Positions 25,697 through 37,344 of a stretch of DNA of 64,000 nucleotides are shown one piece after another. Positions within the stretch are counted from its first letter, which is position 1. Every line of letters begins with the position of its first letter. The stretch lies in assembly GCA_014534425.1 (NCBI GenBank), contig JACVRN010000007.1, positions 1 through 64,000 of the forward strand. Reading direction: 5' to 3'. The notes under the pieces were generated by a model. It worked only from the letters and a program-made list of their open reading frames with translations, had not been told where the DNA came from and did no database searches. This DNA comes from Pyrinomonadaceae bacterium. Its GTDB lineage: Bacteria > Acidobacteriota > Blastocatellia > Pyrinomonadales > Pyrinomonadaceae. The position numbers and the translations under genes are program-made.

Positions 25697-25852
25697 CGCC
25701 GCCGTTTATCAGGAATCTCCACACGTCCTCGGCGCTCTTGATTCTTGCCGGGCTTGAACGGACTTCCCGCATACATCCTTTGAAAAAGGCTTCTCTGCCC
25801 GGAAGCCTTGCCCATCGTTAAAGTCTTCACTTGAATGAGAGGAAGCGAAAAC

Positions 25853-28800
25853 ATGCCAGCCGCGCAGCCCAAGCGAAAAGCCCTCTTTGTGCGATTAGAG
25901 AAGCCCAGCCACGGCGACCTGAAGATTATCACTCACCTGAAGGGGCTTCATTTCGATGTCACTTCCATAGACGACGAGAAAGCGTGGACGAGGCCCGATA
26001 ATAAAAAGATAGAACTCATCGTCATCTCTTCGACGGCGAAGGCAGATGTGCTGAAGGACAGATTCGCCGAAACTCCAGTGCCGGTCGTAGTCCTGGACGT
26101 TGAACTCTTCAGATTCATGGGCCTCTCCGAGATGACGGAAAACAGCACGTCGAAAATCACAGAGCTGGACATCACTGGGCCGGGCCATCCTCTGGCCGCA
26201 CGTCTCATAGGCAAGGTCAAGGTCTGTAATAAAGAAACGACCATCTATTATGGAAGCCCCGGAGAGAAGGCCCAGGTGATTGCCTGTCTGCCCGACGAGC
26301 CGCAACACTCGGCCATCTTCGCTTACGAGGTGGAGGAAGAGATGGCTGGCGGCTTTCGAGCGCCCGCGCGCCGCGTCGCCATGACCTTTAAGGACGACAT
26401 CATCGATGAAGGCACCCCTCAGATGTGGGAGTTGTTCGAGCAGGCAGTCCTCTGGGCGGTCGGAGACGCAGACCCCTACGGCCCGAAAAAATTCTATGAA
26501 ATCTTCAGAGAGGAGTGGGGAGAGATACTGGATCGCAGGTGCAGGCTGGCTATGTCGCGCGCCGAGAATACAGGTCAGCACGTCACTTGCGCCACTGTCG
26601 GAGATAGCCCGCCTGAGAATCTTGTAGGGCTTGCTCTGTCGGGCGGCGGGATACGCAGCGCGACTTTCGCGCTCGGACTTTTGCAGAGACTAAAAGCCAA
26701 AGGGATGCTCCCAATCTTCGACTATCTTTCGACCGTTTCGGGCGGAGGTTATCTGGGAGGTTGGTGGAGCGCCTGGCTTGCGCGCGAGCTTCAGAAGGAG
26801 GCTCTGCCTATAAGGTTGACTGCCTGCCCGAATTTTTGGAGCGTGTTGCGGGCAGACCCTCAATATCAAGCGCTGATTCTGACTTTATGGGCAAAGCTCA
26901 AGGAGGACAAGACAAAGAAGAAGGAGAAAGAGAAGCTCCCAATTTTTCCGCCGCCCGAAAAGATTATGCACGCGCGCGACGACGAGATGCATCAGAGCGT
27001 CGGATACGAAGAGAGGCCGCCGCTCGCCACCGGAGAAGAAGTCACGGAAGGCTCCCTGTTTGCCGGGCACGACCCCATTCATCACCTGCGTCTTTTCTCC
27101 AACTACCTCACGCCCAGAAAGGGGACGCTGAGCGCAGACACCTGGCGCGCCGTAGCCATCGTCACGCGCAACATCATCATGACGTGGCTCATACTCGTCC
27201 CCATGCTGTTTGCGGCAGTCGTAGCCGGCCAGCTTTACTTCATAGTGCAGCCGACGGGTAGTGATATGTTCGTACACTACCCTAAGTCTACGCCTACACC
27301 GGCTGAAGCTTCCACGCCCGCGCCGACGCCCGCTCCGGCCGGTGAATTGAGTTTCAAAGCGACCATCACAGAGGAATCCGAGGTCAAATTGCAGGCGACG
27401 GCTGCGCCCACGCCGGGGCCTACGCCCGCGAGCAGTATCGTTCATCACTACTCTGAGCCGAAGGTGTTGCAGCAGCGCGCCCTGTTTGCCTCCGTGCCCC
27501 TGCTGGCGCTCGCGGGCTGGATCATCATCATGATCTCTTACTGGATGACGAAGAACACGAGCGGCTCGCCGCACATGAATGATTTCGGCGCTCATTCGCT
27601 GGGCTTTCTGGGCGGCGTAGTCACTTGGACGCTGCTAGTGCTCTTCATCTATTGGGGCTGGCCCAATCAGAATTTAATGGAGAATTTGAATGACTTCTGG
27701 GTCAAGGTTATTAAAGCTTATTGGATGGGAATAAGTTTGTGGGTCGTGATTGGCATTATTCTCATAGTGCATGCTCGTCGGCGTCACGAGGCGGAAAGCA
27801 TAAAGGGCGGCGGTGCCCTGAAACAGTTCCGCGACCGCTTTGTCAGAGACTTTAAAGCTAACAGAAGGTGGCGCAGAGAGGTCATACGTAATCAGATTAT
27901 TCGCATACACGCTTCGCTCCTGGTGGTCTTCGTTGTCCTGGCCTTCGTGCTGTTGATAGCAGGCTTCGGCCACGAGATAGCGGAGTTTCTCTTTGAAGCC
28001 GGAAGCGGTTACGTGAAGAAGGCCGGGGGCGTGTTGGCCGTGCTGCTCTCCGGGTTGGGCGCTATATACATGGCTATCAAGGCTTCGCCGTCGGGCGGAG
28101 GCAGCGCGGGCGAAGGCCGCACCACGCTCACGACCCGGCTCATCTTCGCGCTCACGCCGCCGCTTGTCATAGTCGTGTTGACGATTGCGCTCGCATGGGC
28201 GTCGCACATGCTGCTCTATTACTTCGCCCAGTCTGGAAAGATTGAGCGGCTTCACCCGCTTGACCTCGCGGCCTTTACTGCCATCTTTCTGGCTCTGGTG
28301 TTCGCCATCGCAGAGATTAAGTGGTGGCCGCCTACGCGCTGGTGGCACAGCATAAGGTTCTGGGCCTTTCTGGTGGTCGGCCTGACGGTCGGTGCCCTGC
28401 TAATTACGGGCGGCATTCTCTGGCGACGGAATTTTGAATATAGGCTTCTGTGGTTCGTTTGGCCCGCCACGCTCGCGCTTCTGGCGATGACCGGCATAAT
28501 GATTTTGACGCGGCTGGCCTTCCTGGAAGTAAATAAAGATGCGAAGGGTGTCAGGGAGACGAAAGATAAAAGGGAGAGACGCTTTCGGTTCTTCCTTAAA
28601 GGCTGGTACAAAGAGAACAAGCCGCGCCCGCGCACGCTGCTGTTCATAGCGTTGGCCCTTATCCTGTTGACGCTGGCAGCCGGAATCCTGCTCGCGCTGA
28701 CTTATGATTCAGCATACCTCAAGCTGGTCGAACAGCAGATTCAGTCAAGATATTTACTTCTGACGATTGCATCCGGCGCTGTGCTGGCGCTGTGTCTGGG

Positions 28801-30118
28801 GACGGTTGTTCTGGAGCTATTCTTCGCGCTCGGCCAGAACCGTCTCTCGCTCTGGCTAATCTTCTCCGTCTTCGTGCTCACATCGGCCATACTGCTGTTG
28901 AGCACTTCAACTGCCGCCGCGACTTATGACTCCGAGATTCTGGCGCACGCGGCGATAGGATTGATGGCACTGGCGCTCGGTTGGGTCATAGCGCTCGGCT
29001 GGATGGCAGACCCGAACATGCTCTCGCTTCACTCTTTCTACAAAGAGCGGCTGGTGCGCGCTTACATGGGCGCGTCCAACGGCACGCGCAATATTCAGCA
29101 GGCAGAGATTACAGAGGCCGTGGAGAATGACGACGTGCCGCTCAAAATGCTGAATAACTGTCGGCGTGGCGCGCCGTATCATCTGATTAACACGACGCTC
29201 AATCTGGTAGGAGGCCGAGACCTCACCACAGCGCAGCGCTCGTCCGTGATGTTCGTTCTCTCGAAGCGCTTCTGCGGCTCCACGCGAACCTTTTATCGTC
29301 GCACGGCGGAGTACATGAGCGGGCAAATGATGCTCGGCACCGGAGTAGCCATCTCCGGCGCAGCCGCCAGCCCCAACATGGGAGCCTTGAAGACGACTTC
29401 GGCGCAGGCCATGCTCCTGACTCTTCTCAACGTGCGGCTCGGATACTGGGCACCGACGCCGAAAAAAGAGCAGTGGAAGTCTTCGCACGCGCGCCTCTGG
29501 CCCTTCTACATGCTCAGGGAATTCCTGTCGCAGACGAACGACCTGTCCAGCTACTGCTACCTGACGGACGGCGGCCACTTCGACAACCTGGGCCTCTACT
29601 CTTTAGTCGAGCGCGGCTGCCGCCTGATAGTCATCTCGGACGCGACCGCAGACCCTAAGCCCTGCTTCAGCGACCTGGGCGCGGTCATTCGGCGCTGCCG
29701 CATAGATTTCGGCGCGCAGATTAATCTGGTCGTAGACGACATGCGTAGAAATAAGGATACGAAAGAGGCAGAGACCTTCGTCGTCGGCACCATTGATTAC
29801 TCGGATGAGCACAGGAACGCTCTGGGCTGGGATACCGGCGACGACCCGCGCAAACACAGGGGCATCATCGTTCTCATCAAGCCCGCTATGAAAGCAGGCG
29901 TCAACGCAGACCTGCGCCAGTACTCGCTGGAGAACGACGACTTCCCCGACCAGACCACTGGCGACCAGTTCTTCGACGAAGCTCAATTCGAGAGCTACAG
30001 AAAGATGGGCGAATTCTGCGCCGACCAGGCGTTCGGAAACGTCAAGTTCAATGGCGATGAAACATTCGACCGCGTGCTGGAGACGATGGGCTGGAGCGAG
30101 AAGCTGGAAAAGGACTGA
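25853..30118 (+). CDS. Large membrane patatin-like phospholipase with N-terminal ThuA-like domain
   Basis: 1421 residues. Residues 1-210 resemble the ThuA/GATase-like fold often attached to surface proteins ('ELDITGPGHPLAARLIGKVKV', 'GEKAQVIACLP', 'APARRVAM'). The patatin domain is split: glycine-rich oxyanion site 'LSGGGIRSATFALGLLQRL' (Ser263 region), nucleophile Ser296 in 'TVSGGGYLGG', then about a dozen transmembrane helices (440-1060) with a Pro/Thr-rich loop, and finally the catalytic Asp1239 in 'TDGGHFDNLGLYSLVERGC'. So the dyad partners are separated by a long membrane insert. Predicted lipid acyl hydrolase acting at the membrane. Start at 25853, nine bases after AGAGGAAG; an ATG at 25835 adds six residues. 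Monocistronic. Confidence 0.85.
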   Translation: MPAAQPKRKALFVRLEKPSHGDLKIITHLKGLHFDVTSIDDEKAWTRPDNKKIELIVISSTAKADVLKDRFAETPVPVVVLDVELFRFMGLSEMTENSTSKITELDITGPGHPLAARLIGKVKVCNKETTIYYGSPGEKAQVIACLPDEPQHSAIFAYEVEEEMAGGFRAPARRVAMTFKDDIIDEGTPQMWELFEQAVLWAVGDADPYGPKKFYEIFREEWGEILDRRCRLAMSRAENTGQHVTCATVGDSPPENLVGLALSGGGIRSATFALGLLQRLKAKGMLPIFDYLSTVSGGGYLGGWWSAWLARELQKEALPIRLTACPNFWSVLRADPQYQALILTLWAKLKEDKTKKKEKEKLPIFPPPEKIMHARDDEMHQSVGYEERPPLATGEEVTEGSLFAGHDPIHHLRLFSNYLTPRKGTLSADTWRAVAIVTRNIIMTWLILVPMLFAAVVAGQLYFIVQPTGSDMFVHYPKSTPTPAEASTPAPTPAPAGELSFKATITEESEVKLQATAAPTPGPTPASSIVHHYSEPKVLQQRALFASVPLLALAGWIIIMISYWMTKNTSGSPHMNDFGAHSLGFLGGVVTWTLLVLFIYWGWPNQNLMENLNDFWVKVIKAYWMGISLWVVIGIILIVHARRRHEAESIKGGGALKQFRDRFVRDFKANRRWRREVIRNQIIRIHASLLVVFVVLAFVLLIAGFGHEIAEFLFEAGSGYVKKAGGVLAVLLSGLGAIYMAIKASPSGGGSAGEGRTTLTTRLIFALTPPLVIVVLTIALAWASHMLLYYFAQSGKIERLHPLDLAAFTAIFLALVFAIAEIKWWPPTRWWHSIRFWAFLVVGLTVGALLITGGILWRRNFEYRLLWFVWPATLALLAMTGIMILTRLAFLEVNKDAKGVRETKDKRERRFRFFLKGWYKENKPRPRTLLFIALALILLTLAAGILLALTYDSAYLKLVEQQIQSRYLLLTIASGAVLALCLGTVVLELFFALGQNRLSLWLIFSVFVLTSAILLLSTSTAAATYDSEILAHAAIGLMALALGWVIALGWMADPNMLSLHSFYKERLVRAYMGASNGTRNIQQAEITEAVENDDVPLKMLNNCRRGAPYHLINTTLNLVGGRDLTTAQRSSVMFVLSKRFCGSTRTFYRRTAEYMSGQMMLGTGVAISGAAASPNMGALKTTSAQAMLLTLLNVRLGYWAPTPKKEQWKSSHARLWPFYMLREFLSQTNDLSSYCYLTDGGHFDNLGLYSLVERGCRLIVISDATADPKPCFSDLGAVIRRCRIDFGAQINLVVDDMRRNKDTKEAETFVVGTIDYSDEHRNALGWDTGDDPRKHRGIIVLIKPAMKAGVNADLRQYSLENDDFPDQTTGDQFFDEAQFESYRKMGEFCADQAFGNVKFNGDETFDRVLETMGWSEKLEKD

Positions 30119-30254: not shown

Positions 30255-33200
30255 ATGCGTGAGGTAAAACGTTCCCCCTTTCTACGCTACGCCATAGCCA
30301 TTCTGCTGGTGGCAGTGGCGACCCTCATCACCTGGAGTCTTCAGGCGGAGCACGCGCGCACTCCCTTCGCCTTCTATTTCATAGTGGTCGTGGCCGCGAC
30401 CATCTACGGCGGGCGCGGCCCAGGGCTTCTGGCCATCGCGCTCTCGGCCATTTTAAGCAGCTACTTTATTCTCCCGCCGCGCTTCAGCTTCCTTATAGGC
30501 TACGAGGGAATTGTACAGCTAGGAGTCTTCCTCTTCGTCGCGCTCGTCATCAGTTCTCTGGCCGAGCGTGCGAGCGGCGCTGAGCGTAAGACGCGCATGA
30601 GCGAAGCCAGCCTTCGCATAACTCTTCAGAGCATAGGCGACGCCGTGATAGCCACGGACGCCAAGGGTCGCATCACCTTCATGAATCAGGTGGCGCAGGA
30701 GTTGACGGGCTGGCGGCTGGAGGAAGTGAGCGGCAGAGATTTAGCGGAAGTCTTCCACATCATCAACGAGCAATCGCGCCGTAGGGTTGAAAGCCCCGCC
30801 GAGAAAGTGCTGCGCGAAGGCGTGGTCGTCGGCCTTGCCAATCACACCATGCTCGTCACGCGCGACGGGCTTGAGATTCCCATAGACGATAGCGGCGCTC
30901 CCATCAAGGACGAAGATGGAAACGTCACAGGCGTCGTGCTTGTCTTTCACGACATCACGCAGCGTCGTCTGGGCGAAGAGGCCACGCTCAGGCTGGCCGC
31001 CATAGTGGAGTCTACCGAAGACGCAATCTTCGGCAAGACGCTGGACGGCATCATCGCCAGTTGGAACAAGGGCGCGGAAAGGCTCTACGGTTACGCGGCG
31101 GAAGAGATGATAGGTAAAAGCATCTCCATTCTGTTGCCGCCGGACAGACCCGAAGAGCTAAAGCTCATTCTGGAAACAGTCAGACGCGGCGAGCACATAA
31201 AACAGTTCGAGACCGTTCGCGTACGCAAAGACGGCAGGCGCATCAATGTTTCGCTGACCATCTCTCCTATAAAGAATGAGGGCAGAATCGTAGGGGTTTC
31301 CACCATCGCTCGCAACATCACAGAGCAGAAGCAGGCGGAAGAGATGTTCCGCCTCGCTGTGGAGTCTGCGCCGAACGCCATGGTGATGGTTGATGAAAGC
31401 GGCTCAATCGTGCTCATCAACTCGCAGGCCGAGAAGCTCTTCGGCTACAGCCGCGAAGAATTAATCGGGCAGTCTGCAGAGATACTTGTGCCGGAGCGTT
31501 TCCGCAAGTCTCAGCCCGAATACAAGCAAGTGTTCGCGGCCCAACCGCAGGCCAGGGTGATGGGCGCGGGGATTAGTCTTTACGGGCTGCGAAAAGACGG
31601 CACGGAGGTTCCTGTAGAGATAGGACTCAACTCCATTGAGACGGAGAAGGGACGACTGGTCTTAAGCTCAATCGTAGACATCACGGAGCGCAAGCGAGCC
31701 GAAGCCGCCCTGCGCGAATCCGAAGAACGCTTTGCCAAAGCTTTTGAATCAAGCCCGCTCGCTCTGACCATCACGTCGCTCAAGACGGGGCGGCTGCTTG
31801 AAGTCAACGACACCTTCACGCAGCTTTCCGGCTACACGCGCGACGAGGCAGTGGGCCACACCACTCTTGAACTGGGCCTGTGGTCTAAGCCTTCTGACCG
31901 CGAATCCGAGCTTGGGATGATTGCCGAGCGCGGGCGCGTGCACAATATAGAATATCGCTTCCGCATGAGAGATGGCCGCGAGCTTGTGGGACTACTCTCA
32001 GCCGAGCGCATTGAAATCGGCGGCGAGCCTTGCGCGCTGACCGTCATACAGGATGTGACGGAGCGCAAGCAGGCAGAGGTGGAGCGCGAGCGGCTCCTGC
32101 AACGCGAGCGTCGTGCGCGCGAAGAGGCCGAAGAGGCCAACCGTCTCAAGGACGAATTCCTCGCCACGCTCTCGCACGAACTGAGAACGCCTTTGACGGC
32201 GATGCTCGGCTGGACGCGCATGCTGCGAACAAAGCAGTTGGACGAGAACACATCCATTCACGCGCTTGAGACCATAGAGCGCAACGTGCGCGCCCAGACG
32301 CAGCTTATAGAAGACCTGCTGGATGTCTCGCGCATCATCACCGGCAAGCTTCGCCTGGAGACGCGGCCCGTTGAGCTTGTGCCCGTCATAGAAGCCGCGA
32401 TTGATTCCATTCAACCGGCAGCCGAAGCCAAAGAGATTGTCCTGGAGAGAGCGCTTGACCCTACGGCCAGCCCCGTGCTCGGCGATACCGCTCGCTTGCA
32501 GCAGGTGGTCTGGAACCTGCTTTCAAACGCCGTCAAGTTCACGCCCAAGGGCGGGCGCGTACGCGTCTCTCTGGAGCGCAGCGACTCTTACGCAGCCATC
32601 AGTGTGACGGACACGGGTGTAGGCATCAGCCAGGAATTTTTACCCTACGTCTTCGACCGCTTTCGTCAGGCCGATAGCTCAAGCACAAGGGCGCACGGCG
32701 GCCTCGGGCTGGGGCTTGCGATTGTGCGGCATCTTGTTGAACTGCACGGCGGGATTGTGAGCGCAACCAGCGACGGCACGCAGCGCGGCGCGCGCTTTAC
32801 CGTCAATCTTCCCCTGATGGCCGTTAACGTGAGAAGACCGATGCTGGCGGAGACGGACGGCGACGGCGATGAAAGTGAAGGGGCGCTTCTCGAATGCCCT
32901 TCGCTCTTGCAGGGCGTTCGCATACTGGTCGTGGATGATGAAGCCGATGCCAGGCAGCTTCTCTCTACAATCCTGGGTCAGTGTGAGGCGGTGGTCGAAG
33001 TGGCCGCCAACGCGAAGCAGGCTATCGAAGCCCTGAAGCGTAAGCCGCCCGACCTGCTCATCAGCGACATAGGAATGCCGGACGAAGACGGCTACGGTCT
33101 CTTACAAAAACTGCGCTCGGATGAAGACCCCAGGTTGAAAGAACTGCCTGCGCTTGCTCTCACTGGATACGCGAGCGAAGAAGACCGCACCCGCACGCTC

Positions 33201-33293
33201 AACGCGGGCTTTCAGATTCACCTGGCTAAGCCCGTCGACCCTCAATCCCTGATAGCTGCCTGCGAGCAGTTGGTCAAAAAAGATAAGTCCTGA
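30255..33293 (+). CDS. Multi-PAS hybrid sensor histidine kinase
   Basis: 1012 residues. N-terminal four-helix DUF4118 domain (about 10-100), as in KdpD-like sensors, then four PAS domains (roughly 115-240, 245-365, 365-490, 490-615) with typical 'SIGDAVIATDAKGRITFMN' starts. HisKA with phospho-acceptor His641 ('LATLSHELRTPLTAMLGW'), HATPase with 'NLLSNAVKFTPKGG' and 'GGLGLGLAIVRHLVELHGG', and a C-terminal receiver with Asp938 ('DLLISDIGMPDEDGYGLL'). No DNA-binding output domain; it would pass phosphate to another protein or act through the receiver. PAS number suggests sensing of redox, light or small molecules. It converges with the TPR regulator gene downstream, leaving 19 bp. Confidence 0.93.
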   Translation: MREVKRSPFLRYAIAILLVAVATLITWSLQAEHARTPFAFYFIVVVAATIYGGRGPGLLAIALSAILSSYFILPPRFSFLIGYEGIVQLGVFLFVALVISSLAERASGAERKTRMSEASLRITLQSIGDAVIATDAKGRITFMNQVAQELTGWRLEEVSGRDLAEVFHIINEQSRRRVESPAEKVLREGVVVGLANHTMLVTRDGLEIPIDDSGAPIKDEDGNVTGVVLVFHDITQRRLGEEATLRLAAIVESTEDAIFGKTLDGIIASWNKGAERLYGYAAEEMIGKSISILLPPDRPEELKLILETVRRGEHIKQFETVRVRKDGRRINVSLTISPIKNEGRIVGVSTIARNITEQKQAEEMFRLAVESAPNAMVMVDESGSIVLINSQAEKLFGYSREELIGQSAEILVPERFRKSQPEYKQVFAAQPQARVMGAGISLYGLRKDGTEVPVEIGLNSIETEKGRLVLSSIVDITERKRAEAALRESEERFAKAFESSPLALTITSLKTGRLLEVNDTFTQLSGYTRDEAVGHTTLELGLWSKPSDRESELGMIAERGRVHNIEYRFRMRDGRELVGLLSAERIEIGGEPCALTVIQDVTERKQAEVERERLLQRERRAREEAEEANRLKDEFLATLSHELRTPLTAMLGWTRMLRTKQLDENTSIHALETIERNVRAQTQLIEDLLDVSRIITGKLRLETRPVELVPVIEAAIDSIQPAAEAKEIVLERALDPTASPVLGDTARLQQVVWNLLSNAVKFTPKGGRVRVSLERSDSYAAISVTDTGVGISQEFLPYVFDRFRQADSSSTRAHGGLGLGLAIVRHLVELHGGIVSATSDGTQRGARFTVNLPLMAVNVRRPMLAETDGDGDESEGALLECPSLLQGVRILVVDDEADARQLLSTILGQCEAVVEVAANAKQAIEALKRKPPDLLISDIGMPDEDGYGLLQKLRSDEDPRLKELPALALTGYASEEDRTRTLNAGFQIHLAKPVDPQSLIAACEQLVKKDKS

Positions 33294-33312: not shown

Positions 33313-35622
33313 TCAGGGTCTTTTGGCCCGTTCCGCGCCTTCGATTTTATTGCGCCGGATGATGCTGCGCCTGCGCGGTGTGGCGGGGACTCTGGCCTCC
33401 AGCAAATTCCTGTGCTTGGTCTCAATCAGCGAAGATAGGGATTCGTGATGCTTGAACCCAAGCAGTCGCGCAGCCTTTGAGACGTGTCCCTTCGCTTCCT
33501 TGAGCGCCAGTTCTATAAAGCGCGACTCCAACTGCCGCACCTCTTCTTTGAGCGAGAAGCCTTCCCAGGGATTCGCAAAGCTTGCGCGCTTAGAGCGCCG
33601 CAGCCCCGCCGTCTCAACCGCCTCCGGCGTGATGACTGCGCCGTCGCTTGCCGCCAGCAGCGTGCGCTCAATCAACATCTGCAACTCTCTTGCGTTTCCT
33701 TCCATGGGAAGCCTACGCATAGCCTGTATGGCTTCGGGCGTAAAGACGATTCTCTTCGAGTCCTGCTTGAGCGCTTCAGTGATGAAATGTTTTGCTAGCG
33801 CCTCTATGTCTTCTGGGCGCTCGCGCAAAGGCGGAATCTCTACGTGAAATGCCTGTAGCCTGTAAAAAAGGTCTTCGCGGAAGCTGCCCTTCTCAACTCT
33901 CTTCTTAAGGTCGTGGTTGGTGGAAGCTATGATACGCACGTCCACGTATTCGGGCACAGGCTCGCCCAGCGTGTGTATCTCGCCGTGCTCTATCACGCGC
34001 AGCAGCTTGGCCTGCGCGCTCGGGCTTAGCTCTGCAATCTCATCCAGGAGCAGAGTCCCGCCCGCAGCCTGGCGCACCAGGCCCGGATTATCCGAAGCCC
34101 TTTCGCTAAAGCCTTCCCAACGATTGCCGAACAACTCAGTTTCGCACGCGCTGTCCGTGAGCGCGCCGCAATTGACTGCCACAAACTCGCCAGCACGCCC
34201 GCTCCATTCGTGAACAAGACGCGCCAGCAACTCCTTGCCAGTGCCAGGCTCGCCCGAAATCAGAAGAGGATGCAGGGTCGTAGCAATCCTGTGCGCGCGT
34301 TTCAGAAGCTCCGCCATCTCGTCCGAAGCGTAAACGAAATTCGGCCAGCGCCGTTTATCCGCTTGAGGCGTGCTCGCGGGCTTTGAAGCCTGTAGCGCCT
34401 TACGAGCCGCCAGCCTCAGGCGCGAAAGAATCCCCGGATGCTGTGATTGCGAGAGCAACTGATCCGCGCGCTCATAAATTCCTAACTTCTCTTCACGCTC
34501 TAGCTGCTCGCTCAACTCTTCCAGCAAGGTCAGCGCGGCCACGCCTGCGCCCGCGATGTCGCCTGCCTGATAAGCCACCTCGCCCGCGCGCTCAAGCATA
34601 CGGCGCGCTTCGTCCGGCTTGCCAAGCCGCGCCAGCGCAACGCCCCACGTCGTCAAAGCCTCGGCCAGATGCGCCTGCTCGCCGCCCTCTTCCAGCACTC
34701 TTACCGTCACGCGCACGACCTTTTCGGCTTCCGCGTTCTTGCCCTCTTCCAGAAACGCACGCGCACGCGTCTCGTCCACCTGCGCCACGCTGCCTTTGTC
34801 TTTGAGACTGGCGAAGAGCCTGCGTGCGCGGTCTAGATGCTCGTGCGCCTCCGACAATCTACCGTTGGTCAGAAACAGGAAGCCCAGATTATTTTCCACG
34901 CGGGCCTTGTAACGCACGTTACCGGCCTCGCCGTAATGAAAGCTGGCGGCGGCGTATTCGACCAGAGAGCGGTCAATGTAATCGCTGCGCCCCTGCGTTG
35001 TCCCTAATTCATTTAAGACGGAGGCAAGCTGCGTGTGAAAACTACCCCTGAAGGAGTGTTTATCTACTGACTCAATCAGGGGCGAAGAGTCAACCAGGAT
35101 GCGAAGCGCGTCTATGTGCCGGTTAGCCCCTCTCTCGACCATGGCGAGGTTGATTAAAGCCCTGCCTTTTTGTAACCCGCAGGCATCGTCCAGCCTGGTA
35201 ATCACGTTATTAAGGACGATGCGGGCCTCGTCAAACGCGCCCTCGCGCCAGTAACAGATAGCCAGGGTGATTTGAGCCTCGCACTCTTTTTCCACGTCCT
35301 GAAGCTCTTGATAGAGGCCTATGCTCTGGCTGATGAGATCTTTGGCTATCTCCTGCGAGCCTTCTATCTGTCTGGAACTGCCAATCCATCCCGATAAAGA
35401 CCCTGCTCGAAGGAGAAGCTCGGCGGCTGTAAGCTTGTTTAATCCTTCTATTTCAGGCCGTTCGCCCACGCGCTGCCACAGGCTCTCAAGGACGCTCCGA
35501 GCGGCCTCGTAATTACCCGCCTCTTCCATTTCTTTAGCCAAATGACAGCGAATCTGCACGCGTTCGTCGTGGGTAAGGTCGGGATTGGCTAGCTGTTGAA
35601 GCAGAGAAGAAGCTAAGTTCAT
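33313..35622 (-). CDS. TPR-AAA+ regulator of the sigma-54 activator type with degenerate GAFTGA loop
   Basis: 769 residues. Residues about 1-400 are tetratricopeptide-like helical repeats, the kind used to bind peptides or proteins. Then an AAA+ domain: Walker A 'GEPGTGKE' (457-464), 'VAVNCGALTDS', 'ELFGN', Walker B 'GGTLLLDEIAELS', 'IIASTNHDLKKRV', 'FREDLFYRLQAFHVEIPPLRERPEDI'. Where sigma-54 activators have GAFTGA after ELFGHERG, this protein reads W-E-G-F-S-E-R, so contact with sigma-54 is doubtful. C-terminal Fis-type helix-turn-helix with 'HVSKAARLLGFKHHESL'. Probable DNA-binding regulator. It is divergent from a small exported peptide gene, with a double TTGCAA site 25-41 bases upstream of its start. 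Confidence 0.85.
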   Translation of the reverse strand: MNLASSLLQQLANPDLTHDERVQIRCHLAKEMEEAGNYEAARSVLESLWQRVGERPEIEGLNKLTAAELLLRAGSLSGWIGSSRQIEGSQEIAKDLISQSIGLYQELQDVEKECEAQITLAICYWREGAFDEARIVLNNVITRLDDACGLQKGRALINLAMVERGANRHIDALRILVDSSPLIESVDKHSFRGSFHTQLASVLNELGTTQGRSDYIDRSLVEYAAASFHYGEAGNVRYKARVENNLGFLFLTNGRLSEAHEHLDRARRLFASLKDKGSVAQVDETRARAFLEEGKNAEAEKVVRVTVRVLEEGGEQAHLAEALTTWGVALARLGKPDEARRMLERAGEVAYQAGDIAGAGVAALTLLEELSEQLEREEKLGIYERADQLLSQSQHPGILSRLRLAARKALQASKPASTPQADKRRWPNFVYASDEMAELLKRAHRIATTLHPLLISGEPGTGKELLARLVHEWSGRAGEFVAVNCGALTDSACETELFGNRWEGFSERASDNPGLVRQAAGGTLLLDEIAELSPSAQAKLLRVIEHGEIHTLGEPVPEYVDVRIIASTNHDLKKRVEKGSFREDLFYRLQAFHVEIPPLRERPEDIEALAKHFITEALKQDSKRIVFTPEAIQAMRRLPMEGNARELQMLIERTLLAASDGAVITPEAVETAGLRRSKRASFANPWEGFSLKEEVRQLESRFIELALKEAKGHVSKAARLLGFKHHESLSSLIETKHRNLLEARVPATPRRRSIIRRNKIEGAERAKRP

Positions 35623-35644
35623 CTATAATTTGCCTTTCCGTTAG

Positions 35645-35663
35645 CTTGCAACATTCTTGCAAG
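35645..35663. promoter_or_regulatory. Double TTGCAA site in the divergent promoter region
   Basis: CTTGCAA (35645-35651) and CTTGCAAG (35656-35663) repeat with 11-bp spacing, one helical turn; each TTGCAA core is itself palindromic. The site lies 25-41 bp upstream of the regulator start, well placed for autoregulation. Which protein binds it is inferred, not shown. Confidence 0.4.
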
Positions 35664-35776
35664 GCTATAAATTTACCATAAGACGGTGCTATGATGCGCC
35701 GGCTTGTTTTTTGTTCTTGTTAGGTTCACCGCCAACTTAAACCTTTTACTACTAAAAATTGCTCAGGAGACTAACA

Positions 35777-36028
35777 ATGAGGAAACTCGAACAACTCTGC
35801 GCCGCCACAGTGCTGACATTAGCGCTTTCGTTCACCGCCTTCGCAGGCATCATGGACACTCCGGCTGCTTCGTCCCCGCCGCCGGCACCGCAGAGTTCTA
35901 CGCCAGGTGCCATAGACACATCTGGGGTACTCTTAAGTGAAACGCCAAATAGCGAGACGGAAGCCACGGATTCGGTAACAGTTTTTACCTTCTACCTTTT
36001 CGATAGCATGATGTCTTCGATTTTTTAG
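35777..36028 (+). CDS. Small exported peptide (83 residues)
   Basis: ATG 35777 follows AGGAGA (35765-35770). Residues 1-22 are a signal peptide (MRKLEQLCAATVLTLALSFTAFA). The mature part of ~60 residues has a Pro/Ser-rich middle ('AASSPPPAPQSSTPG'), an acidic/Thr-rich segment, and a strongly hydrophobic end 'VTVFTFYLFDSMMSSIF'. No cysteine pair, no catalytic motif. It is divergent from the TPR-AAA+ regulator gene, and no other gene is in the transcript before the gap at 36029. It could be a secreted signal peptide precursor, a surface peptide or a small periplasmic protein; the position beside a TPR regulator favours the first, without proof. Confidence 0.65.
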   Translation: MRKLEQLCAATVLTLALSFTAFAGIMDTPAASSPPPAPQSSTPGAIDTSGVLLSETPNSETEATDSVTVFTFYLFDSMMSSIF

Positions 36029-36222: not shown

Positions 36223-37344
36223 TTAAGGCTTCTTCTCCGGCTTCGGTGATTGTTCGGGCGTCGGAGGCTCTTCGTCTCCAACGTCTTCTATAATCTTGAC
36301 CTCGGTTCCATACTTCTGATAGTTGCGGAACCGTATCTCGTTGCGGGCCTGTACCAGTTGGTCGCTTCCTTCCACGCGCGTGGTCATGCGAAGGTCTACA
36401 GTGATGGGGAGAAGATACTGCCGCTCTGCGATTGTTATCCAGTCGTAGTCGGTCAGGCTGGTCTTCGCCCGTATGGGAAAGTCGGGGGAGATGTCTGTTG
36501 CTATGTCTTCGATGCGTAGCACGCGGTAGTTCTCGCGGTCTATCCAGACGCGCCCGCGATAGCCGACCGTTATCGTGCGGTTGCCGTTGGTAGTTAGAGT
36601 TTGGCGTGAATTAATCTTTTTGACTTCGAACTCGTAGACGATGGCGCGGCGATTACGTATCAGGTCTGTGTCTACGGCCTGAAAGATGGTTTGGCTTTCA
36701 GGACGAAAGAGCAGGAAGAGCGCTGTGACGTATTCGCCCGAAGAGCTTGTCCCGCCCAACTCCTGATAGGAGCGCCCTTCCTTTATCTCTTTGTTCGGCG
36801 GCATGCCGTTGACGGCCAGCACTCTGTAATCTTCGCCCTGGCTGGCGCGGTAAGTGACTATGATGGTCAAGCGGTCGCTCGTCTGCCAGTTCTCCGTGTT
36901 GCCCAGAGCGTAGGAGCGTATTATCTGCTGGCGGACTATGAAATCCGGCATGGCTTCTGTGGCGGCGAGTGTAGCCACTCGGGCCTTCTCTAAAACCGCG
37001 CTGGCCTCTGCGGCTGAAGGCGGTTGAAAGGCCGAAGGATTCTGACGGCGGCGCTCAGCCTCTTCAATAGTGCGACGCAGTAGCGCGTCGTTGCCGCTCT
37101 TGGTTGCAATCAGAGAGCGCAGCCCGTCGGTCAATGGAAAACTGATGCCGCGCCGCCTGACCTCATCTATCAGCGCATCCCTCGTCTGCGGATATTTCGG
37201 TAGCTGGTAAAGAAGACGCACGAACTCCTGGTTAGTGAGCGGAGCCTCGGCTTGCGTCTGCGCGTATGAAGCTGCACAAGCAGAAAAGAGCAGGCCGCAA
37301 GCGAGCGCCCACGTTAAAAGCCGTCTGTGAATTCTAGAGAACAT
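36223..37344 (-). CDS. Exported protein, lipoprotein-sorting-like family (paralogue of 41197-42027)
   Basis: 373 residues. Signal peptide with a Cys in its core and end ('CGLLFSACAASYAQ'). The C-terminal half follows the order seen in the protein at 41197-42027: 'GRVWIDRENYRVLRIE', a segment with '...YLLPITVDLRM', then 'RFRNYQKYGTEVKIIEDV'. This resembles LolA-like beta-barrel folds that carry lipid or lipoprotein in the periplasm, but conserved lipid-binding residues cannot be verified. The N-terminal 100 residues are helical and Gln/Glu-rich. A Pro/Lys-rich tail closes it. Function unknown. Confidence 0.6.
   Translation of the reverse strand: MFSRIHRRLLTWALACGLLFSACAASYAQTQAEAPLTNQEFVRLLYQLPKYPQTRDALIDEVRRRGISFPLTDGLRSLIATKSGNDALLRRTIEEAERRRQNPSAFQPPSAAEASAVLEKARVATLAATEAMPDFIVRQQIIRSYALGNTENWQTSDRLTIIVTYRASQGEDYRVLAVNGMPPNKEIKEGRSYQELGGTSSSGEYVTALFLLFRPESQTIFQAVDTDLIRNRRAIVYEFEVKKINSRQTLTTNGNRTITVGYRGRVWIDRENYRVLRIEDIATDISPDFPIRAKTSLTDYDWITIAERQYLLPITVDLRMTTRVEGSDQLVQARNEIRFRNYQKYGTEVKIIEDVGDEEPPTPEQSPKPEKKP

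Follow-up and report, generated by a model that had tools for sequence, protein, structure and literature searches.

The divergent gene pair at positions 33313–36028 of the window (the whole stretch of 64,000 bp that was analysed) encodes a regulator with a TPR domain and a small exported precursor, and very probably constitutes one of many channels in a family of peptide signalling systems. It is a member of a large gene-pair family of soil Acidobacteriota that is apparently undescribed, and the likely ligand of the TPR groove, as judged by comparing sequences across the family, is a short unit at the mature N-terminus of the precursor and not the C-terminal end. Four lines of sequence evidence support this reading: conservation of the pair, predicted Sec export of the small protein, selection acting on the unit, and co-variation between unit and groove that predicts which partners belong together. 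We infer the remaining steps, namely that the peptide leaves the cell, that an Opp-type importer brings it back in, that transcription is affected, the sign of this regulation, and a part in sensing a population.

The regulator gene (33313–35622, reverse strand) encodes a 769-aa protein with four paralogues in the same genome, and Pfam domain matches bear out the TPR, AAA+ and Fis-type HTH domains assigned to it in the initial annotation. The TPR domain (residues 1–395; 34438–35622, reverse strand) is a predicted ligand-binding superhelix on the basis of Pfam TPR families and an AlphaFold2 model (mean pLDDT 94.6, pTM 0.89). The AAA+ domain (residues 431–599; 33826–34332, reverse strand), in which Sigma54_activat matches residues 431–594 (E 6e-51), has a degenerate GAFTGA loop (WEGFSERA); an AAA lid is also present, and the Fis-type HTH_8 spans residues 695–722 (33457–33540, reverse strand). 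Downstream of the regulator gene are genes for a 1012-aa PAS hybrid histidine kinase (30255–33293) and a 1427-aa patatin-like multi-membrane protein (25835–30118).

The precursor gene (35777–36028, forward strand) starts with an ATG at 35777 and encodes 83 residues followed by a stop codon. It had been described as a divergent gene with a signal peptide and a hydrophobic end, and this description holds. Homologues are present, and a ribosome-binding site, AGGAGA (35765–35770, forward strand), is located 7 bp 5′ of the ATG. Residues 1–23 (35777–35845) form a predicted signal peptide, with predicted cleavage between AFA and G, and the repeat analysis places a first copy of the signal unit, GIMDTPA (35846–35866), directly after it and a second, degenerate copy, GAIDTS (35906–35923), further along. 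The last 16 residues (35978–36025) form a hydrophobic C-terminal tail, and the stretch between the signal peptide and this hydrophobic end is GIMDTPAASSPPPAPQSSTPGAIDTSGV; all of these features are on the forward strand. On the opposite strand beyond the precursor gene is a reading frame for a 373-aa predicted exported protein without a Pfam match (36223–37344).

The genome containing the window has five paralogous divergent regulator-precursor pairs including the one described here, each of the four other precursor homologues being divergent from a homologous TPR regulator. The units of the five precursors are GIMDTPA (window), GQVECPG, GDILCPG, GKVDCPG and GTIPYPG. Two of the seven own-genome matches to the small protein (L006 and L007) were rejected as chance out-of-frame matches. 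In the family set of 119 genomes (titled Pyrinomonadaceae, Blastocatellia and Acidobacteria) close homologues of the regulator are present in 43, and the same 43 match the precursor profile; one genome beyond these also matches the profile, which is likely a chance peptide match. Using a strict criterion, a divergent small exported ORF is present at 82 of 85 sampled regulators compared with 38 of 850 shuffled upstream regions, and the expectation that the small gene is conserved beside the regulator in relatives is thus well founded. There are up to nine pairs per genome, and the receptor was not found outside the family in class and phylum searches at the thresholds used. Distant TPR homologues that were intended as a peptide-free outgroup also have precursors, and served instead as a held-out test set. 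Some precursor matches have no regulator nearby, and part of these lie in tandem arrays or where a contig ends. There are several instances of tandem precursors by a single receptor, with three in L229 and two in L230 and L232, and L231 has an extra precursor copy further from the receptor; the units within such an array (L229–L232) are often similar. Six contigs classed as viral (L298–L303, from the viral collection) carry regulators with an adjacent precursor, and in L303 the unit GDSQTV is present twice.

Across the family the precursors contain one to six copies of a Gly-initial unit of 6–7 residues, with the pattern G-x-(I/M/V/T)-x-x-x, directly after the signal peptide. Between two and six copies were recognised in 73 of 124 precursors and a single copy in 51 of 124. 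Examples include GDIGVG in four copies in L105, GDMGTG in four copies in L249, GDLGTD in five copies in L242, GTITGS in six copies in L241, and GNITSRT in five copies in L237, the last of which reads GNITSRA. In 93 of 122 precursors the unit starts exactly where signal peptidase is predicted to cut. When the first unit is searched for further along its own precursor, the best match scores 21.8, as against 13.1 between precursors (z=16). Where identical hexamers recur within one precursor, their codons differ in 260 of 576 comparisons (45%), compared with 390 (68%) expected if they were unrelated; because the codons have diverged while the residues remain identical, the repeats are for the most part long-standing copies whose amino acids have been maintained. 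The comparison thus supports a unit kept by selection and not fresh DNA duplications. In the genomes sampled, the paralogues all have distinct units (e.g. 8 of 8 and 7 of 7), and in recent paralogues of one genus the signal peptide, linker and tail are near-constant and it is the unit that varies, with changes often occurring in both copies together.

Couplings between TPR columns and unit columns were analysed in 122 receptor-precursor pairs. The leading ones connect residue 204 (TPR4 position 12; codon 35011–35013) with unit position 2, residue 164 (TPR3 position 12; 35131–35133) with position 4, residue 197 (TPR4 position 5) with position 5, and residue 122 (TPR2 position 9; 35257–35259) with position 6; residue 198 (TPR4 position 6), whose codon together with that of 197 occupies 35029–35034, co-varies with unit position 4. 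All of these codons are on the reverse strand. The strongest coupling is 0.348, compared with maxima of 0.124 when shuffling is complete and 0.175 when it is confined to genera. Positions 2, 5, 9, 12 and 13 of the TPR motif are ligand-facing (PMC1261162), and ligand-facing positions account for six of the ten top coupled columns where 1.2 are expected (p=3e-4). In a test of co-change between sister pairs (58 disjoint pairs), the link of 197 to unit position 5 ranked first and that of 204 to position 2 ranked second of 2178 tests (p~2e-6 each). Comparing whole-matrix trees did not discriminate the unit from the tail, since it is the tail that tracks ancestry more tightly, and we therefore relied on couplings between columns, co-change in sister pairs and matching with whole genera left out. 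We note that the TPR domain also has an Asn pair, Asn244-Asn245 (TPR5 positions 5–6; 34888–34893, reverse strand), the second of which is present in all 122 receptors; an Asn at TPR position 6 is known from TPR complexes to touch the backbone of the ligand (PMC1261162).

A mechanism that fits these observations is that the small gene would give rise to a Sec-exported precursor, and that cleavage by signal peptidase would expose the Gly-initial unit of 6–7 residues at the new N-terminus, with further copies being freed, or presented, from the Pro-rich stretch. Free Gly-initial peptides could then re-enter the cell via an Opp-type importer (the genome encodes six SBP_bac_5 oligopeptide-binding proteins) and bind in the concave groove of the cognate TPR head. 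The bound peptide would span TPR2 to TPR5 in a roughly antiparallel orientation, which places residue 122 near unit position 6, residues 164 and 198 near position 4, residue 197 near position 5 and residue 204 near position 2, and its binding is predicted to alter the output domain of the receptor. The main alternative, in our view unlikely, is that the TPR head binds the unit of precursor that has not been secreted, acting as an internal sensor of export that reports how much secretion capacity or precursor its own cell has, with no intercellular signal. The co-variation indicates that the groove reads the unit and is silent on where it does so, and repeats within a single chain could engage several receptors at once. 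However, the exact start of the unit at the predicted signal peptidase site in most precursors means that a free N-terminal Gly would arise only after export, and generic secretion sensing would need fewer distinct units than are kept in each genome.

The identity of the part recognised by the receptor can be approached by partner matching, in which a score from the top six couplings is trained on other genera with close homologues removed. Matching by unit gives a mean relative rank of 0.274 within genomes (0.5 random; n=93, p=4e-9), with four of the links being selected in all 19 folds and the link of 198 to unit position 4 in 15. The A-helix columns of the TPRs give 0.258 and the B-helix columns 0.451. 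The HTH columns also have weak predictive power for the unit (0.429, p=0.02), so the test is not wholly free of shared ancestry, and there is one genome (G140) in which matching fails. Partners are identified neither by the tail (0.494, p=0.48) nor by the signal peptide (0.46). The initial annotation had pointed to the C-terminal end as the part that is recognised, and a hydrophobic end matured into a pheromone for the TPR domain would resemble the short hydrophobic peptides of streptococci. The tail is indeed present in nearly all precursors, and its similarity strongly tracks that of the TPR domain (partial r 0.45), but its matching is no better than random, its couplings are weak and, like those of the signal peptide, are not enriched at ligand-facing positions, and it stays near-constant in recent paralogues in which the unit changes. 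We consider it very unlikely that the tail is the signal; the unit, unlike the tail, co-varies with the groove and identifies partners, and is thus the likely ligand.

The link between residue 204 and unit position 2 takes the form of a charge rule, in which Lys or Arg is present at 204 in 63 of 66 receptors whose units have Asp or Glu at position 2, compared with 12 of 56 for other units (p=3e-18). The window pair has an Asn at 204 and an Ile at unit position 2. A distant clade (~20–30% identity) that was found later and took no part in deriving the rule obeys it in 20 of 20 cases, with Lys or Arg in 13 of 13 receptors for Asp/Glu units and in 0 of 7 others (p=1.3e-5); here the units had been assigned by eye, using the list of precursors, before we looked at residue 204. 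Among the six viral-collection loci there is one clear exception to the rule (L302). The proposed linkage of precursor variation to the TPR domain is therefore upheld by the couplings, the sister-pair co-change, the leave-genus-out matching and the charge rule. The same observations bear on whether the small protein could be an effector (e.g. a bacteriocin-like or surface peptide) under the control of its neighbour, with the co-variation reflecting shared ancestry only. Its export, Pro-rich linker and hydrophobic end fit a secreted effector, and the pair is inherited together, but ancestry would not give leave-genus-out matching, sister-pair co-change or the restriction to ligand-facing positions, and would not be expected to produce the charge rule in so distant a clade. 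The tail and signal peptide moreover share this ancestry yet fail in partner matching, and an effector role strikes us as highly improbable.

The TPR heads of the 122 receptors are joined to several types of output: a Fis-type HTH alone (58), HTH with a receiver (38), AAA+ with HTH (19), a hybrid histidine kinase (6) and GGDEF-EAL (1), these counts being drawn from length and sequence motifs together with Pfam scans of representative receptors. The AAA+ activator scaffold that was given prominence initially is thus present in the window regulator but is not central to the family, since only 19 of 122 receptors have AAA+. The GGDEF-EAL output is in L242 (801–3449) and the hybrid histidine kinases are in L236–L241; the precursors of L236–L242 have strongly repeated units and are placed further upstream (about 340–500 bp). 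In the distant clade, the C-terminal domain of L205, L208, L212, L214 and L303 resembles by eye the C-terminal fold of LexA/S24 peptidases, with no Pfam match in the three that were scanned (L205, L212 and L214), and the receptors of L206, L207 and L210 stop right after the TPR domain. An exact GAFTGA motif is present in none of the 122 homologues (WEGFSERA in the window, GSFTDA in its paralogues), and because the AAA+ versions lack it, classical sigma54 activation by these receptors appears unlikely from their sequences, although rpoN is present in the genome. That the window regulator is an ordinary NtrC-type sigma54 enhancer-binding activator with an accidental neighbour would agree with its Sigma54_activat match and with rpoN, but is most improbable given the degenerate motif, the absence of the AAA+ domain from 103 of 122 homologues and an adjacent promoter that looks sigma70-like. 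Sigma54_activat, the AAA lid and the Fis-type HTH are nevertheless shared by the window protein and 18 others of the 122 with the NtrC family of sigma54 activators, from which they differ in that GAFTGA is degenerate in all, most members lack AAA+, and the TPR domain stands in place of the usual sensor.

Published surveys place RRNPP systems, in which TPR receptors sense peptide pheromones inside the cell, in Bacillota and the mobile elements of these bacteria (PMC9765709, PMC10075063). Some of their propeptides contain several pheromone copies, and more than one propeptide gene can serve a single receptor (PMC9765709, PMC11343458). In comparison with RRNPP/RRNPPA systems (Rap-Phr, NprR-NprX, PlcR-PapR, AimR-AimP, Rgg-SHP, ComR-ComS and PrgX), the family described here similarly has a small exported propeptide adjoining a TPR receptor with a DNA-binding or other output, a predicted ligand just a few residues long, numerous paralogous channels, multi-copy propeptides and, in some cases, several propeptide genes for one receptor. 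A Foldseek search also gave a match to Rap of Phi3T with its pheromone (E about 1e-5, TM 0.50–0.58). There are also differences. The hosts are Acidobacteriota and not Bacillota; the TPR domain is N-terminal with the Fis-type HTH or other output C-terminal, whereas RRNPP receptors have an N-terminal HTH or three-helix bundle and a C-terminal TPR domain; the unit is at the mature N-terminus of a precursor with a separate C-terminal tail, whereas RRNPP pheromones are at the propeptide C-terminus; and the gene order is divergent, with outputs that include receiver, hybrid kinase and GGDEF-EAL domains. Among PDB chains, a profile search matched kinesin light chain and designed TPRs of consensus sequence (E<=1e-8) and gave no match to an RRNPP receptor. 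By analogy, the family would work like RRNPP signalling, but by domain order, sequence homology and signal position it is not a member of RRNPP. The superhelical TPR groove is shared with LGN/Pins, kinesin light chain and HOP, and the coupled positions correspond to TPR positions 5, 6, 9, 12 and 13 that are known to face ligands (PMC1261162), although those proteins are eukaryotic adaptors, not transcription regulators, and have unrelated ligands.

In a search that covered open-access papers, no comparable system in Acidobacteriota was found. On balance we favour the view that this is an independently evolved, RRNPP-like family of intercellular peptide signalling in diderm Acidobacteriota, with channels of distinct units (up to nine per genome), multi-copy precursors of hexa- or heptapeptides, a residue-to-residue specificity code, and one type of TPR sensor with transcriptional, kinase or cyclic-di-GMP outputs. 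If so, an abundant soil phylum in which cell-cell communication is little known would use many parallel peptide channels. The co-variation data yield a specificity code that is directly testable, the predicted ligands are short enough for immediate synthesis, and the modular outputs suggest that the sensors are swappable.

The region between the two window genes contains the double TTGCAA reported just upstream of the regulator, whose two copies are indeed located at 35646–35651 and 35657–35662, 11 bp apart from start to start. Together they read as a dyad, CTTGCAA-N5-TTGCAAG (CTTGCAACATTCTTGCAAG; 35645–35663), which is the proposed operator of the regulator. By chance the window should contain 0.01 instances of TTGCAA-N5-TTGCAA, and the entire 5.4-Mb genome has a single one; no further CTTGCAACATTCTTGCAAG dyads are present in the genome even allowing one mismatch, and since the dyad is unique to this locus no wider regulon could be proposed. 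A -10-like element of the proposed precursor promoter, TATGAT (35690–35695, forward strand), follows ~27 bp after the dyad. The AAA+-Fis HTH output probably acts at this dyad, just 5′ of the sigma70-like -10, and the pair would thus regulate itself. A reading of the TTGCAA repeat as a sigma54 site was rejected because it lacks the -24 GG and has the wrong spacing, and because the GAFTGA motif is degenerate.

Among 81 intergenic regions of pairs, TTGCAA is present in 38 (7.3 expected), CTTGCAAG in 22 (0.6 expected), TATGATGC in 12 (0.1 expected) and AGGAGA in 45 (3.0 expected). When all 122 receptor-precursor pairs are considered, only 49 intergenic regions contain TTGCAA, and its presence associates with HTH residues, without a clean pattern in the recognition helix. 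In other clades (L118–L133 and L152–L168) different inverted repeats, such as CCTATC...GATAGG or CCGCCA...TGGCGG, take the place of the TTGCAA dyad near the regulator start.
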